Below, piece after piece: positions 19,637-64,000 of a DNA stretch of 64,000 nucleotides. The position numbers and the translations under genes were made by a program. The notes under the pieces were generated by a model. That model ran no database searches, was not told where the DNA came from, and saw only the letters and a program-made list of their open reading frames with translations. Within the stretch, counting starts at the first letter, position 1. Each line of letters begins with the position of its first letter. This DNA comes from Rhodococcus sp. IEGM 1379 (lineage in GTDB: Bacteria > Actinomycetota > Actinomycetes > Mycobacteriales > Mycobacteriaceae), in assembly GCF_030056815.1 (NCBI RefSeq), contig NZ_JASHKR010000004.1:1-64000 (forward strand). Direction: 5' to 3'.

Positions 19637-20545
19637 GTGATTTCGTTGCTCGCCCCAGGACAGGGCTCTCAGACACCCGGCATGCTCAACCCATGGTTGA
19701 CGTTGCCCGGCGCGCAAGACCGCCTTGAACTGTGGTCGAAAGCCGCGGGCTTGGACCTCGTCCGCCTCGGCACTACCGCAACAGCCGAAGAGATCACCGA
19801 TACATCGGTCACTCAGCCGCTCGTCGTAGCAGCCGCCCTCCTTGCCTATGAGGAAATCGAATCACGGGGCCTGCTCGGTTCCGACGTGATCGTTGCCGGT
19901 CACTCTGTCGGCGAACTCGCCGCAGCCGCTATCGCCGGCGTCATCTCCGCTGACGACGCCGTCGCACTCGCTGCCGTTCGCGGTGCCGAGATGGCCAAGG
20001 CCTGCGCCCTCGAAGCGACGGGTATGTCAGCCGTTCTCGGCGGCGACGAAGCTGAAGTTCTGGCACGCATCGAGGAACTCGGCCTGGAGGCAGCCAACCG
20101 CAATGCTGCTGGTCAGATCGTCGCAGCAGGTCTACTCACTGCACTGGCAGAACTCGCGACCACCGCGCCCGCCAAGGCTCGGGTACGCGCACTTCCCGTC
20201 GCCGGCGCGTTCCACACACGGTTCATGGCTCCGGCTCAGGACGCCGTCGCAGCCGCTGCCGCCAAGATCACGCCTTCCGATCCGATACGGACATTGCTCT
20301 CCAATTCGGACGGATTGCCGGTCACCTCTGGTGCCGATGCACTTTCCAAACTTGCCGCTCAGGTAACGCGTCCCGTCCGCTGGGAACTCTGCTCCGCATC
20401 GCTGCGGTCTGCCGAAGTCACCATGGTCGTGGAGTTGCCGCCTGCCGGAGCCCTCGTCGGTATCGCCAAGCGTGAAATGCGTGGCACGCCGACGTTGGCC
20501 CTCAAGAACCCGGAGGATATCTCCGAACTGCCCGGACAGCCGTAG
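19637..20545 (+). CDS. fabD: Malonyl-CoA:ACP transacylase
   Basis: A 302-residue acyltransferase with the [13 protein letters not shown] opening, nucleophile Ser90 in [11 protein letters not shown], and active-site histidine His193 in AGAFHTRFM. It moves malonyl groups from CoA to AcpM for chain extension. It is the first gene of the FAS-II operon (fabD-acpM-kasA-accD6). The GTG start at 19637 has no convincing ribosome binding site, so the mRNA may be leaderless. Confidence 0.96.
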
Positions 20546-27568: not shown

Positions 27569-27619
27569 TGGTGGGGCGGGTGGGGCTCGAACCCACGACC
27601 AATGGATTATGAGTCCGAT
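27569..27619 (-). other. tRNA 3'-half fragment (CAT anticodon), candidate prophage att site
   Basis: The reverse complement reads as the 3' half of a tRNA: anticodon arm GGACTCATAATCC, variable loop, T-arm GTGGGTTCGAGCCCCAC, acceptor CCGCCCC and an encoded ACCA. No 5' half pairs with it; the sequence upstream of ATCGGACT is unrelated. This is the usual trace left by an element that recombined at a tRNA gene. The intact Met- or Ile-type (CAT) gene would lie at the other end, outside the window. Confidence 0.75.
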
Positions 27620-48362: not shown

Positions 48363-48543
48363 CGGTGCGCCAATCCTTCCTCGTCCGACCTTTGTAATTC
48401 TGGGATGGGCGGTTTACGTCCCGCGATCTTCGGACCTAGGTCCGTAGCCTCCTCGCCAATCAGGCAAATCGACCAATGGGCAGATATATTCCGTGAGTCC
48501 CTCAAACCTTTTCGGGGGCCAATATCCGTTGAGGGGTCAATTC

Positions 48544-50721
48544 GTGGTTGCTCTACTACTGCCGTTCAAGCATGGGCGTCGAGGCACGAAGCAGGCTGAC
48601 GCAAAGCCTCACCAGCGACTCGACATCCAAGGCCTGCGCATGGTCGCAGTCATTCTGGTTGTACTCTCGCATCTATTCGGCTGGCCGCGTGGCGGGTTCA
48701 TCGGCGTCGACGTTTTCTTCGTGATCTCGGGATTCCTCATCACAGGATCACTGATGCATACGATGGAGAAGACGGGTCGGATCTCGTTTTCAAGCTTCTA
48801 CCGTCGCCGCATTAGACGCATTATTCCTGCCGCCACACTCGTTCTCGTCGTCACTTGCATCGCGTCTTACATGATCTTTTTGACCAGCCGATTTCAGTCC
48901 ACGGTGGTCGACGCATTGTGGGCTTTTCTGTTCGTATCGAACTGGCGGTTCGGAATCGAAGGTACGGACTACTTCACTGCTACCGGGCCGGTATCTCCAT
49001 TGCAGCACTACTGGTCGCTCAGCGTGGAGGAGCAGTTCTACTTCGTATGGCCCCTGGTAATCCTGGCGATCGGACTCCTGGTCGCCCGCAAAGAGTGGTC
49101 ACGCCAAGTCCGCCTCGCGATCTCGGCCGGAATCATGGGCGTCGTCGTAGCGGCGTCATTCGCATACTCACTGCTCGACACCGCTAGCAATCCGACGTGG
49201 GCATACTTCTCCACTTTTACCCGGGTCTGGGAACTGGGAGTCGGCGCATTAATGGCTATCAGCATCGGATATTTCGAACGGATCCCCGATAGAATTCGCC
49301 CGTTCATGGCCTGGGCCGGACTGATTTTCATCGCTGTCGGCGCCTTTGCTATCGCCGAAGGTGGAAGCGGGTTCCCTGCTCCCTGGGCGGCTGTCCCCGT
49401 GATCGGCGCAGCACTCGTGATCGGCGGCGGAGTATCCGGTGATCAGCGCTTCCTTGGAGTGCTCACTAATCGAGTAAGTACCTATATCGGAGATATCTCC
49501 TACTCGTTGTATCTGTGGCATTGGCCCGTGATCATCCTGCTCGGAACGTTGATTGATCCCAGTGGGTACCTCTATTACTGCAGCGCACTGCTGCTCATGT
49601 TTGGGCTCTCGATACCCGCGTACCACTTCTATGAGGATCGAATCCGGAAGTCGAACTGGCTCTTATCCTCTGACGAAACCCGTGACCGGAAGGTTTTGGA
49701 CCTGTCGCGATGGCGACTGTCAAACCTTCGCATGAAAGAGTCCAACCAGACGATCGGGACACTCTCGCTGATCGCACTCACCGCCGGTCTGGTCCTATCC
49801 GGCGTTGCTTTCACGACGCCAGCTGCCACCGCTCGTCCTCCTGAAACGTTGGCAGCAGCGCAGAGCGGAACGGATGCCGCGCCACAAACTGAACGAGGCC
49901 TCGCAATTGCGGCCGCAGTTCGGGCCACCGAATTCCCCGATTTCAACCCTTCGATCGATCATTTGGAAGATCTCCGGGCACCACAGTGGAAGCAGAACGG
50001 CTGTATCAACGTCACGCAGAACAATGAATCTCAATGCGTGTACGGGTCGGCCACTTTGCCGAAGACTGCCGTCGTGTTGGGCGATTCAATAGCGGTCAGT
50101 TATCTGCCAGGGCTCGTAGCCGGCCTAAACGCGGAGGGGTACCGAATTCACTCCTACACAATGGAAGGTTGCGCCACCGCGAATGTTGACGCTGTAGCGA
50201 GCAACAAATCCAAAGAGGCGTACACCGAGTGCACTGAACATCGAGCTTGGGCTCTCGACCGGGTGCGCGCACTCAATCCAGACTTGGTCGTCATCTCCGA
50301 CTCGCACCTGACCGTCTCTCGACTACGGAGCGGAGCGAAGGGCGGGACCGCACAGTTGGAGTGGACGAACGGGCTGAGTTCGGTGATGTCTGAACTTCCC
50401 GACCCGAAGAAGGCGGTGCTGTTGACATCGCCTCCTGGAGCAGGGAATCTCGCTGAGTGTGCCGCCAAATTCGGTAATCCTTCGGACTGCACCAAAGCAA
50501 TTAGCGGCGACTGGTTGACCGTCAATGCGGCAGAAGCGGAGGTTGCAGGGAAGGTAGGAGCGCAATTCGTCGACTCTCGAGAGTGGTTCTGCACCACCTC
50601 CGGGTACTGCCCGTCGTTCGTTGGGTCCACTCCCGTATACGTTGATTCCGGTCACCTGACATCCACATACAGCGAGGGGCTCGCGCCCGAGTTGCAAACA
50701 ACAATCTTGCCGACGGCGTGA
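48544..50721 (+). CDS. Acyltransferase-3 / SGNH surface-glycan O-acetyltransferase (OafA-like)
   Basis: About 725 residues. Residues 30-380 are the ten-helix acyltransferase-3 domain: LDIQGLRMVAVILVVLSHLF, GGFIGVDVFFVISGFLIT, FYRRRIRRIIPA, HYWSLSVEEQFYFVWPL. After a linker and one more helix, an SGNH esterase-like domain starts at VVLGDSIAVSYLPGL and ends near VDSGHLTSTYS. OafA-type enzymes acetylate surface glycans and are classic lysogenic-conversion genes. The GTG at 48544 follows GAGGGG; GTG 48493 is the alternative. Confidence 0.9.
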   Translation: MVALLLPFKHGRRGTKQADAKPHQRLDIQGLRMVAVILVVLSHLFGWPRGGFIGVDVFFVISGFLITGSLMHTMEKTGRISFSSFYRRRIRRIIPAATLVLVVTCIASYMIFLTSRFQSTVVDALWAFLFVSNWRFGIEGTDYFTATGPVSPLQHYWSLSVEEQFYFVWPLVILAIGLLVARKEWSRQVRLAISAGIMGVVVAASFAYSLLDTASNPTWAYFSTFTRVWELGVGALMAISIGYFERIPDRIRPFMAWAGLIFIAVGAFAIAEGGSGFPAPWAAVPVIGAALVIGGGVSGDQRFLGVLTNRVSTYIGDISYSLYLWHWPVIILLGTLIDPSGYLYYCSALLLMFGLSIPAYHFYEDRIRKSNWLLSSDETRDRKVLDLSRWRLSNLRMKESNQTIGTLSLIALTAGLVLSGVAFTTPAATARPPETLAAAQSGTDAAPQTERGLAIAAAVRATEFPDFNPSIDHLEDLRAPQWKQNGCINVTQNNESQCVYGSATLPKTAVVLGDSIAVSYLPGLVAGLNAEGYRIHSYTMEGCATANVDAVASNKSKEAYTECTEHRAWALDRVRALNPDLVVISDSHLTVSRLRSGAKGGTAQLEWTNGLSSVMSELPDPKKAVLLTSPPGAGNLAECAAKFGNPSDCTKAISGDWLTVNAAEAEVAGKVGAQFVDSREWFCTTSGYCPSFVGSTPVYVDSGHLTSTYSEGLAPELQTTILPTA

Positions 50722-60508: not shown

Positions 60509-60655
60509 TTAGCGCTCGATCTTCGTGTACGTCGCACCGGGCTGTGATGCGGCAGCGCGGGCTTCCGCTTCTGTCGCATAGCGCTTCACAGTCCCGTCGA
60601 CGCGGCGCACCTGGTGAACAGTTTTCCGTTGCCCGCCACCACAATTACATCCCAT
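60509..60655 (-). CDS. Small conserved actinophage protein (CNCGGG type)
   Basis: A 48-residue protein that starts MGCNCGGGQRKTVHQV and ends PGATYTKIER. The N-terminal Cys-x-Cys-Gly-Gly-Gly and the VDGTVKRYATEAEARAAAS stretch are typical of small proteins found between protease and capsid genes in actinophages. It overlaps the protease stop by 11 bases. Function unknown; metal or nucleic-acid binding is a guess. Confidence 0.8.
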   Translation of the reverse strand: MGCNCGGGQRKTVHQVRRVDGTVKRYATEAEARAAASQPGATYTKIER

Positions 60656-62495
60656 GGTTCAGTCCTGCCTTTCGTGTAGCTGCCGCCATACGTGCTGCCC
60701 TGACACGTTGGTTAACCGTCTGGCGACGGCTCTCTCGATGCGCAGACGCACGGAGTTCCGCACGGACATGAGTCGCGATGGCTGACGCGGTGATTGATTC
60801 TTCTGGTTCAACGTGCGGCTTTCGGGTTGGTGGGACACCGGCAGCGACCAACGATCGGATGCCGGATGCTGCGAGTGCTCGGGTTCGTGGGACAGGGAAT
60901 CCTGGGACGTTCACGGCGAGGACCGCGACGAGTTCCAAATTGTTGGAGCCGCGTTGGATGCTGCGCCAGTCACCGGACACTCCGGAGCGGCGGAGCTCGG
61001 CGACACGATCATCGTCGACGCCGGGGAGGATGCGGCCGGAAAGCCATGGCCCCCATAAACCGTCGGTGCAGCGGACGACCGCGACGGCGGTGCCGGTGTT
61101 GTCGTAGTGCTCAGCAGCTGCACGCGCGGCTTGCCGCATACCGGCGTGACCGGTCCCGAGAGTGAGCTTCCCGACCGGAAGCGGTCCGGCAGTGGTGGAG
61201 ATTTCGCCCTGATGGAAGTACGCGTAGTCAGTGTTCGAGGTGGGTGGGCTGACGCAGACGTCGGCGAATCCGATATGGCACGAATCTGCCTGGGCGAGGT
61301 GCCCGTACACGCGGCCGTCGTCGGTGACAGTCAAGGCGGTGAGTTCTTCTGCTTCGGGGATGGTGAAGTCCGCGGCGTCGTACACAACCGCGGACGCCAC
61401 CAAGGCTGCGGTGATGGTGTCGAGGGGGATGTCGCGGACGTCGGTGTCAGCGAACGACAGTCGGAGACGGTCGTAACGGATCGGGCCGGTCTCGGACAGT
61501 TTGTCGACGTCGAGGTTGTACCCGGCGGTGATGTGCGGGACGAAGCACTCATGCTGGGTCGGGACGAGGTCGTAGTTGCCTGCTTCCTCGAGTGCGCCCA
61601 TGACAGCTGACTGCAGCGACGTGATCCCTTCCGCTTCGGCGAGGTAGACCGCGCACGGGTCGTCGCCGTCCGGGTTGAATTGGGCGTGACCCCACACCGT
61701 TCCGGTCATCGGGACGAGGCCGATACCGCCAAGTGCCAGCTCGAGGTGGTCCCTCTGCTCAGGTGACCAGGCTGCAGCGTCTCCGAGGAATACGAGGGTG
61801 GTGTGCAGAACGTCGGGTGGTTCGTAGCCGTCGATCGCCAGGCGGGCGCAATCCTCCGCCGACGGAACCAGTGCGACCATCGCACCCGAATGCTGTTCTG
61901 CTGCTGCAGTCAGAGTTGCTGATGCACTCACCGCGGTGAACTCGTCGTACACCGGTTGGATGCGTGCCGTCTCGAATGCCGGTGAGGAGACACCGGTGAC
62001 GCCCATCAGCTTCCACTCATGCACCCGCAGCAGTTGCCCGGCGACATCAGGCTGCTCACCGGTACCGGACTCGAACGCTGCATACGCGGCGGCGAGTTCG
62101 TCTGCAGTCCATTCCGTTTTGTCGGAGCGGAGCGGGATCTCCTCGAGCGCAATATCGGAGAGGTCCGCCGACACCCAGCCGGCGAACCCGTCACGCAGTT
62201 TACGGGCGTACTCGGCGCCGAACTTGTCCTCCAGGTCCAACGGTCCTTCAGCCCACAGGAATCCGTCTTCCACCCACGCTCGGGTGATCAACCCGACGAC
62301 GCGGGAACCCTCGTGCGCTTCCCACATTTCGTCCTGCGCGGACAGCGCGATGGGTAGCGGGCGCACTGATGGTTCGACGCCGTCAGCGAGGATGAACTCC
62401 CGCATGTCACCGGATCGGGCGTTCACTGGCAGGACCGGCCCTCGCCATCCTGTGGGTAGCGGCTTCTCCCCCGCCGGGGTGGTTGGTGCAGTCAT
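60645..62495 (-). CDS. Capsid maturation protease with embedded 2H phosphoesterase domain
   Basis: A 616-residue protein. Residues about 1-185 form the prohead protease part (WEAHEGSRVVGLITRAWVEDGFLWAEGPLDL, GWVSADLSD). Residues about 200-330 form a 2H phosphoesterase: HTT (His231, Thr233) in LHTTLVFLGDA and HIT (His321, Thr323) in FVPHITAGYN, with normal spacing. The later block VYGHLAQADSCHIGFADVCVSPPTSNTDYAYFHQGEI is typical of actinophage proteases. The ATG at 62495 has GAGGAG upstream. The 2H domain may cut cyclic or linear oligonucleotides or tRNA ends; its target is unknown. Confidence 0.85.
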   Translation of the reverse strand: MTAPTTPAGEKPLPTGWRGPVLPVNARSGDMREFILADGVEPSVRPLPIALSAQDEMWEAHEGSRVVGLITRAWVEDGFLWAEGPLDLEDKFGAEYARKLRDGFAGWVSADLSDIALEEIPLRSDKTEWTADELAAAYAAFESGTGEQPDVAGQLLRVHEWKLMGVTGVSSPAFETARIQPVYDEFTAVSASATLTAAAEQHSGAMVALVPSAEDCARLAIDGYEPPDVLHTTLVFLGDAAAWSPEQRDHLELALGGIGLVPMTGTVWGHAQFNPDGDDPCAVYLAEAEGITSLQSAVMGALEEAGNYDLVPTQHECFVPHITAGYNLDVDKLSETGPIRYDRLRLSFADTDVRDIPLDTITAALVASAVVYDAADFTIPEAEELTALTVTDDGRVYGHLAQADSCHIGFADVCVSPPTSNTDYAYFHQGEISTTAGPLPVGKLTLGTGHAGMRQAARAAAEHYDNTGTAVAVVRCTDGLWGPWLSGRILPGVDDDRVAELRRSGVSGDWRSIQRGSNNLELVAVLAVNVPGFPVPRTRALAASGIRSLVAAGVPPTRKPHVEPEESITASAIATHVRAELRASAHRESRRQTVNQRVRAARMAAATRKAGLNHGM

Positions 62496-62507
62496 CCTGA
62501 ACTCCTC

Positions 62508-62581: not shown

Positions 62582-62809
62582 TCAGTCCTGGAAAACTTCG
62601 CCGAAACCACGGCGATTCAAGCTCCGGATCAGCCCTTCAGTCGGCTCATTTGTAGTGAGCCAATCGCGGACGCCGGCAAGTTGCACGTCTCGTTCAGCGC
62701 GCACGAGCTTCAACCGGGAAAGAAGACTGCCCGCGGTATATGGCGGCGTCATCGGAGATCCGATAGGCAGGAAGGCACTGTCGTCATAGAACCGTTCGTT
62801 GATTTCCAT
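62582..62809 (-). CDS. 75-residue protein next to MuF-ADP-ribosyltransferase, candidate immunity protein
   Basis: A 75-residue protein (MEINERFYDDSAFLPIGSPMTPPYTAGSLLSRLKLVRAERDVQ ... NRRGFGEVFQD) with a helical middle. It starts 2 bases after the stop of the MuF-ADP-ribosyltransferase gene with GGAGGTGAT upstream. I do not recognise it. Immunity genes of polymorphic toxins are small and lie directly downstream of the toxin, so this is the natural candidate; a plain structural or assembly role is also possible. Confidence 0.65.
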   Translation of the reverse strand: MEINERFYDDSAFLPIGSPMTPPYTAGSLLSRLKLVRAERDVQLAGVRDWLTTNEPTEGLIRSLNRRGFGEVFQD

Positions 62810-62811
62810 GC

Positions 62812-64000
62812 TCAGATCACCTCCGCCTGCACTGTGGGGACACTGCCACTGTAGTCGACACCGAGAATGAGCAGGGAGTACGCGGTTCCCAATAGCAGTT
62901 CTCGTTGGTCTGCCATCGCCGGATCTCCTGCGCCGGCAACCCAAAGGGCTGGGGTTCCGGCTCGGATGGTGAGTTCGAAGAGTGCTGGTCCGCCGCCGAT
63001 GAATGGTCGCGTGAATCCGCTTATGGCTTGTTCACGTGAGGTGGAGGCGGCGAGATATCCGGGCGTCTCAATGGCTTGGCCCATGTACCGGTCGAGGTCT
63101 GAGTTCGTTCGGCCAATGAGAGTGCTGATGTTACGGATGCCGCGGTACAGGGTGACGTCCTCTACGAGTTCGCTCGCAGCGATGGCCTCGTCAAGTAGTT
63201 CGACCATGAGTATTGCCTCCTCGTCGTCGGTGTTGTTCCGGACGACGTCCTGCATCCGCCGGTAGAACCGGTCCATTCCCTGCCAGCGGAGGATGGCTTC
63301 TCGTTGCTCGTCGGTGAGTTGCGTGATCGGTTCGGTGAAGTCTCTGTCGAATTGTTCGGCGAGCGCTTCCGAGTCCTCTGGTGTCGGTCCGCCCGTTGGG
63401 CGTTCGGCTACTTCGGGTTCGTCCTCGATGTCAGACGTGTCGGCAGGATCAGTGTCCGCCTCATCGTCTTCGATGGTGGTTTCGTCGTGTGCGTCGTCGG
63501 TTGAATCTCTTTCGTCGTCAACGTCATCCGGTAGGTTCTCGTCGTCAATGTCCAGGTCCGGTTCTTCGTCTGCCACGTGAAGTTCATCATCAGGATCGGC
63601 TTCCTCATCGATGTAGGTGGATTCCGGTTCGTCGGCGGGTCCGTTGAGGTCTTCGTCGGAGATGTCGTCCTCGAGGTCCGGCAGGTCATCGTGCGGTGTG
63701 GTGAACGGTTCGTCTTCTGGTTCAAGCAGATCGGGGTTTGCTTGAATGTCGTCGTCGACGTTCACGGTGTCTTGAACGTCGGGTTCGGTGCGTTGGATGG
63801 GTTCGAGGACTTCGCCGTTGCGTTCCCGCTTCAGGCGGTCGATTGCCGCTGCTGCTTCTGCTTCGTCGTCGGGGCCGAGGCGCGCGCCCATCGGCGTGAC
63901 ACCGCGCCCACCCCACATGCCTTGGAGTTCGTCCTGCATTTCGTGCCAGTCGAGGATGCGCATGGTGCAGCGGCAGTTGATGACTTCGTGTGCTGGGCCG
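62812..64000 (-). CDS. MuF-type minor head protein with C-terminal ADP-ribosyltransferase domain, 5' end outside window
   Basis: The frame is open to the right edge. There it reads GPAHEVINCRCTMRILDW, the NCRCT end of a MuF (SPP1 gp7-like) head domain whose bulk lies outside the window. Counting from the Met at 63963, an acidic linker (residues 60-190) leads to an R-S-E type ADP-ribosyltransferase: Arg274 in LYRGI, the STS motif at 307-309 in YLAASTSREQA, and Gln353-x-Glu355 in QRELLLGTAY. All three catalytic elements are in order. Such MuF fusions are known as phage polymorphic toxins that may ride in the virion. The internal ATG at 63963 is probably not the start. Confidence 0.85.
   Translation of the reverse strand, partial: GPAHEVINCRCTMRILDWHEMQDELQGMWGGRGVTPMGARLGPDDEAEAAAAIDRLKRERNGEVLEPIQRTEPDVQDTVNVDDDIQANPDLLEPEDEPFTTPHDDLPDLEDDISDEDLNGPADEPESTYIDEEADPDDELHVADEEPDLDIDDENLPDDVDDERDSTDDAHDETTIEDDEADTDPADTSDIEDEPEVAERPTGGPTPEDSEALAEQFDRDFTEPITQLTDEQREAILRWQGMDRFYRRMQDVVRNNTDDEEAILMVELLDEAIAASELVEDVTLYRGIRNISTLIGRTNSDLDRYMGQAIETPGYLAASTSREQAISGFTRPFIGGGPALFELTIRAGTPALWVAGAGDPAMADQRELLLGTAYSLLILGVDYSGSVPTVQAEVI

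Follow-up and report, generated by a model that had tools for sequence, protein, structure and literature searches.

What does a phage gain from carrying a toxin on one of the proteins of its head? The biological role of MuF toxins is termed unknown in the available text of a paper on one of them (PMC11699363), and a pair of genes at the end of a 64,000-nucleotide stretch of DNA from Rhodococcus sp. IEGM 1379 (the window) bears on the question. One gene encodes a MuF head protein fused to an ADP-ribosyltransferase (ART) domain, the other a protein of 75 amino acids. Our best explanation, built on sequence comparison, is that the two are probably a temperate-phage polymorphic toxin and its own immunity gene. 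The class is known already: MuF polymorphic toxins include the prophage MuF–ART Bxa with its partners Bsi and BAH. What is added here is a set of natural controls (toxin swaps, dead toxins and a second carrier) together with lone antidotes near phage integrases. That other phages carry the antidote gene by itself was the less expected part.

A probable toxin domain on a prophage head protein

The two genes reside in a prophage of about 59.5 kb inserted in a tRNA-Met of a Rhodococcus-type genome. A 46-bp attachment repeat has its left copy at 27571..27616 and its matching right copy in the tRNA-Met (C150:87005-87050), with a tyrosine integrase adjoining the latter (C150:85810-86919). Portal and terminase genes lie at higher coordinates than the fusion, which is upstream; downstream of the 75-aa gene there is a head gene whose PHROG matches are of protease and portal type, and the genes for the major head protein and the tape measure. 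Attachment repeat, integrase and the genes for portal, capsid, terminase and tape measure together mark the element as a temperate phage resident as a prophage.

Two other genes of the prophage deserve mention. The head gene that follows the pair (60645-62507, minus strand) has a 2'-5' RNA ligase-like (2H phosphoesterase) stretch fused to its head-protease/portal-type matches. The match to 2_5_RNA_ligase2 (E 4.8e-5) is under the Pfam cut-off; the gene product also has two HxT motifs (HTT and HIT), which we take to be the 2H phosphoesterase signature, and it is possibly another injected enzyme. On the opposite strand, an O-antigen acetylase-like gene (48493-50721, plus strand; phrog_6705, E 1.9e-135) is a possible surface-changing moron.

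The fusion gene occupies 62812..64000 of the window on the minus strand, ends in a TGA at 62814-62812, and has no stop in its frame (62812-63999) up to the window edge, beyond which it runs on to an ATG at C150:64857 or a GTG at C150:64866. Counted from the GTG, the product is 684 amino acids long and matches phrog_34890, annotated 'head morphogenesis', over its whole length (E 7.1e-128). Phage_Mu_F matches residues 213-302 (E 7.2e-11, 43.3 bits against a curated cut-off of 29.6). Within the window lies only the end of this domain, bearing the INCRCT motif (63961..64000, minus strand), with the remainder extending to about C150:64230. An acidic linker, 44% aspartate plus glutamate, spans residues 352-495 (63382..63813, minus strand) and leads into the ART domain (62815..63393, minus strand), where the ADPrib_exo_Tox profile (PF03496) matches residues 516-667 above its curated cut-off (E 3.7e-7, 30.1 bits against 23.4). 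This layout had been anticipated in a preliminary description of the locus, which proposed a MuF domain running through an acidic linker into a complete R / STS / QxE ART core and suggested the profile search; each of these elements is where it was said to be once the frame is extended past position 64000.

The core residues are the arginine at 63144-63142, the serine of STS at 63045-63043, the glutamine at 62907-62905 and the glutamate at 62901-62899, all on the minus strand. Arginine, glutamine and glutamate are kept in 18 of 18 aligned ARTs; the serine position differs in form among them (STS, TSLD, TTLD and others). Among known ARTs, the QxE form is associated with targets other than arginine. 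A search with PDB sequence profiles matches the domain to VIP2 and C3-like ARTs, and in seven of its relatives (L028, L080, L102, L086, L071, L078 and L098) the PF03496 match falls under the cut-off. On this sequence evidence, the C-terminal domain of the fusion is a probable ADP-ribosylating toxin.

The small gene next door

Two bases separate the stop of the fusion from the start of the 75-aa gene (62582..62809, minus strand), for which we predict an immunity role from its genetic coupling to the ART. A GGAGG within the last codons of the fusion (62820..62824, minus strand) stops 10 nt short of the ATG and is its probable ribosome binding site, in agreement with the preliminary description. 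That description also gave the protein no known family, and here it needs amending. The protein belongs to phrog_21251 (E 9.1e-22), a family annotated without a function; searches of Pfam and NCBIfam returned no match. A structure predicted from a 14-sequence alignment (mean pLDDT 81.1, pTM 0.64) has helices at residues 26-32, 40-53, 58-66 and 70-73, with low confidence for residues 1-20. All 20 small proteins that are paired with an ART keep D10; R6 and D9 are each present in 19 of them. Mean conservation is similar for residues 1-25 (2.59 bits) and 26-75 (2.51 bits), so it is this motif, not the entire N-terminal tail, that stands out.

Which toxin brings which neighbor

If the small gene were immunity to this ART, it should travel with the toxin and not with the head protein that carries it. 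A MuF profile (A5) found 79 viral loci and gave matches (23 rows) in 19 of the 401 family genomes searched. We classified 50 of these loci by their C-terminus, 39 viral (L139-L177) and 11 genomic (L218-L228), leaving the 40 weaker viral loci (L178-L217) outside the classification; seven of the classified loci (L143, L155, L166-L169 and L177) are on the same contigs as L016, L017 and L020-L024. L155, whose MuF frame is broken into two pieces, counts as one locus; its ART and small gene, on the contig of L017, are still open.

The small gene lies downstream in 10 of 10 loci with a QxE ART versus 0 of 40 with other C-termini (Fisher p 1e-10), and in 5 of 5 versus 0 of 33 after dereplication at 90% identity (p 2e-6), both p-values ignoring shared ancestry. 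Some of the 40 carriers without it have MuF domains about 90% identical. One MuF family thus bears several unrelated C-termini across the 50 loci, which amounts to exchange of the C-terminus, and in prophages of equal gene order the slot that separates MuF from the following head gene is filled accordingly. Beside a QxE ART, the 75-aa gene sits there. Beside an ExE-type ART the slot is taken by an unrelated 108-aa gene, without a Pfam match, in six of six loci (L139-L142, L144 and L145; five show the ExE pair in the alignment, and in L141 it was read by eye), which suggests that the small gene is specific. ORFs of 94-108 aa occupy the slot beside C-termini that we presume, by motif, to be nuclease-like or HExxH, the label papain-like having been assigned in the same way. 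At L134, on a different MuF protein, a 105-aa neighbor shares 39% identity with the 108-aa protein across 82 aa (E 1e-19), and the ExE-type ART with its 108- or 105-aa gene is, by sequence, a second recurring pair on MuF carriers.

The reverse case also occurs in nature. Four MuF loci, a small sample (L146, L148, L153 and L220, the first two close in sequence), keep recognizable relatives of this ART (profile E 6e-17 to 6e-28) that appear dead: the arginine has become T, T, H or V, the serine T, T, T or N, and the glutamine is lost in all four, with the glutamate retained in two. At none of the four is there a gene in the slot (gaps of 32, -4, 50 and 42 nt). Nor does the small gene lie elsewhere: searches of complete records found it in 0 of 18 viral ones whose C-terminus is dead or of another type, the control being positive, and a search of genome G308 gave chance matches only (best E 0.29). 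As judged from sequence, the coupling of the 75-aa gene is to catalytically competent ARTs of this QxE type; the gene follows the ART type and not the MuF carrier. The immunity role that the preliminary description had read into it is well supported by this comparison.

Pairing across genomes

We also approached the pairing from the side of the small protein. A profile of eight sequences (A1) matched in 36 of the 401 genomes, giving 43 rows that correspond to 41 genes (those of G008 and G009 are each split into two rows; L087 is at a contig edge). Immediately upstream of 20 of these genes there is an ART domain or a remnant of one; at L081 and L085 the remnant is short and scores weakly. The other 21 copies have no ART directly upstream, L084 having a remnant 1.56 kb off, and the contexts of ART-less copies that we looked at held no phage-like Pfam match. 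Broken or truncated ARTs were seen at L070, L077, L081, L084, L085, L099 and L101. In G006, two ART-less small genes with equal scores (L072 9421-9642 and L073 8069-8290) share a 228-kb contig, with about 200 kb between them.

From the side of the toxin, an ART profile (A3) found 18 places at E < 1e-20 in the 401 genomes, 17 of which have the small gene in their flank, a count that is partly circular because the 18 sequences of A3 come mostly from small-gene-linked loci. The sole exception, L124, is a truncated ART. The direction from MuF carrier to small gene, described above, is less circular. At four loci (L028, L080, L102 and L086) the ART sits behind a VG15-type head protein, told apart from MuF by Pfam or PHROG match (VG15 over the Pfam cut-off in three of the four; phrog_1522, 193 or 34915), and the small gene is again downstream. 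ART and small protein also diverge together, with a Mantel r of 0.86 over 20 pairs and of 0.58 over 13 dereplicated pairs (ARTs < 70% identical); p is 5e-5 in both cases, which is the floor at 20,000 shuffles and ignores shared ancestry.

Putative antidotes without toxins

A search of 50,697 phage records matched the small protein in 66, at ≥ 80% of its length, and this ART in 45, of which 40 are among the small-gene matches listed and five are linked to them through a same-named twin only. Phages with the small gene and without the ART number at least 18 among the matches listed (60 of 73 rows), or 21 by subtraction. The hosts of both sets of phage records are alike Gordonia. Seven small-gene records searched whole with the ART profile (E ≤ 10) held no ART, and both positive controls were found. 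In five of the seven (Apricot, CheeseTouch, Orchid, GMA3 and L018), the lone small gene is no more than about 2 kb from an integrase; Skog and Pupper gave no PF00589 match.

The preliminary description had named one finding that would count against immunity, a small protein conserved as a structural component in phages that lack the toxin. Its first half is borne out by the 18 or more of 66 records just mentioned. The second half fared less well: in five of six ART-less phages that we read, the lone gene is outside the annotated virion gene block, while in Skog one gene named portal is 2.5 kb away. The copies beside integrases fit solitary immunity better than a structural role, as far as sequence context can tell, and some of the ART-less copies could signal another function.

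Tentatively, and with less conviction than we attach to the pair itself, we would read the lone genes as orphan immunity against rival virions loaded with the ART, in a phage arms race in which disarmed phages drop the antidote and keep the dead domain. They would then shield lysogens of other phages. The isolated phages of a single laboratory host, Gordonia terrae 3612, include some with toxin and antidote (Wizard and Twister6) and some with the antidote alone (Apricot, Horus and Orchid). If the orphan-immunity reading is true, the toxins carried on virions are what sets phages against each other in this arms race.

How the pair might work, and what else it might be

The scheme we favor for the toxin and its immunity gene would run as follows. 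A few copies of the fusion would be built into each phage head and enter the next cell together with the phage DNA, where the ART would transfer ADP-ribose to a target. In the cell producing the virions, the 75-aa protein, expressed from the operon of the fusion, would silence the enzyme. Direct binding would be the most likely mode, with the small helical body docking on the ART; to judge by its conservation, the N-terminal motif (R-L/F-x-D-D) might plug the active site.

The same arrangement could serve a different master. Like T4 Alt, the ART might be an injected enzyme of host takeover or counter-defence, kept silent by the small protein until packaging, and head-packaged ARTs are indeed described as injected early in infection in the relevant part of PMC9503650. 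We regard this as a serious possibility, if a doubtful one: the slot swaps the ART for unrelated C-termini (nuclease-like, HExxH and papain-like) in the style of polymorphic toxins, and ART-less phages retain the antidote, neither of which speaks for takeover. An immunity role for the small protein is common to this explanation and to ours; what differs is the beneficiary. Instead of inhibiting the ART, the small protein could serve it as a chaperone or as an adaptor for delivery, which would show equal coupling and co-divergence. We think this improbable, as the lone copies in ART-less phages would have no client, and neither would the open small genes beside broken ARTs at L077, L081, L085 and L101.

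Lone genes close to integrases would also suit a general inhibitor of ADP-ribosylation, directed for instance at host ART defences and recruited beside this ART. The distinct gene that accompanies every ExE-type ART in the slot suggests specificity instead, and leaves a general inhibitor with little to recommend it. Least credible of all is a head assembly or structural protein with no link to the toxin. In this prophage and in Wizardvirus the small gene does sit among the head genes, and it does occur in phages without the ART; against this stand its absence from all 40 MuF carriers with other C-termini, including those whose MuF is about 90% identical, and from all 18 viral records of dead or other C-termini, as well as the lone copies near integrases. 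We therefore return to a toxin and its immunity gene as the explanation to set beside what has been described elsewhere.

Kinship with known systems

That MuF–toxin fusions form an established class in temperate phages, as the preliminary description stated, is confirmed by Jamet et al. 2017 (PMC5576092), in whose available text 89.4% of 191 genes for MuF toxins are reported to be followed by a small ORF, 14% of the toxins are putative ARTs, and delivery by the virion is proposed. Our locus has the same MuF N-terminus, exchangeable C-terminal toxin and small ORF downstream. Within that text, however, Gordonia and Rhodococcus have no occurrences, the phrog_21251-type small protein is not named, and the carrier swap, the dead ART with its empty slot and the lone immunity genes, all found here, do not appear. 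Titles and abstract openings in the open-licence literature yielded no description of this pair or of lone MuF immunity genes in other phages.

Close in architecture and predicted role is Bxa (PMC11699363), a MuF–ART of a Bacteroides stercoris prophage that is toxic to E. coli. Its immunity protein Bsi binds and blocks it, and BAH, an ADP-ribosyl hydrolase, reverses its effect; no such second, enzymatic immunity gene occupies our slot. Apk2, with IapK and Aph1, is likewise a MuF toxin with a small immunity protein, and IapK is reported to occlude the active site, but Apk2 makes (p)ppApp and is not an ART as the Rhodococcus fusion appears to be (PMC12226406, as far as its available text goes). 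MuF fusions to Alt/VIP2 ARTs are also on record in the portions of PMC9503650 and PMC7302621 at hand. By sequence profile, the domain resembles VIP2 and C3-like ARTs at low identity (best matches 1qs2, E 2.9e-7, and C3larvin, 5.5e-6), although the aligned Vip2 chain has a glutamate at the family's glutamine position in the (Q/E)xE motif.

Relatives by sequence occur in Gordonia phages. Wizard, Twister6 and their relatives carry this fusion at 44-46% identity across roughly 75% of the query, annotated in these records as 'ADP-ribosyltransferase domain and MuF-like fusion protein' or 'VIP2-like ADP-ribosyltransferase toxin'. In Twister6, gp14 and gp15 are the fusion and the adjoining small gene, as here. 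At the five Wizard-type viral loci that we measured, the small gene is annotated as hypothetical and begins 122-126 nt downstream of the fusion, against 2 nt in our prophage.
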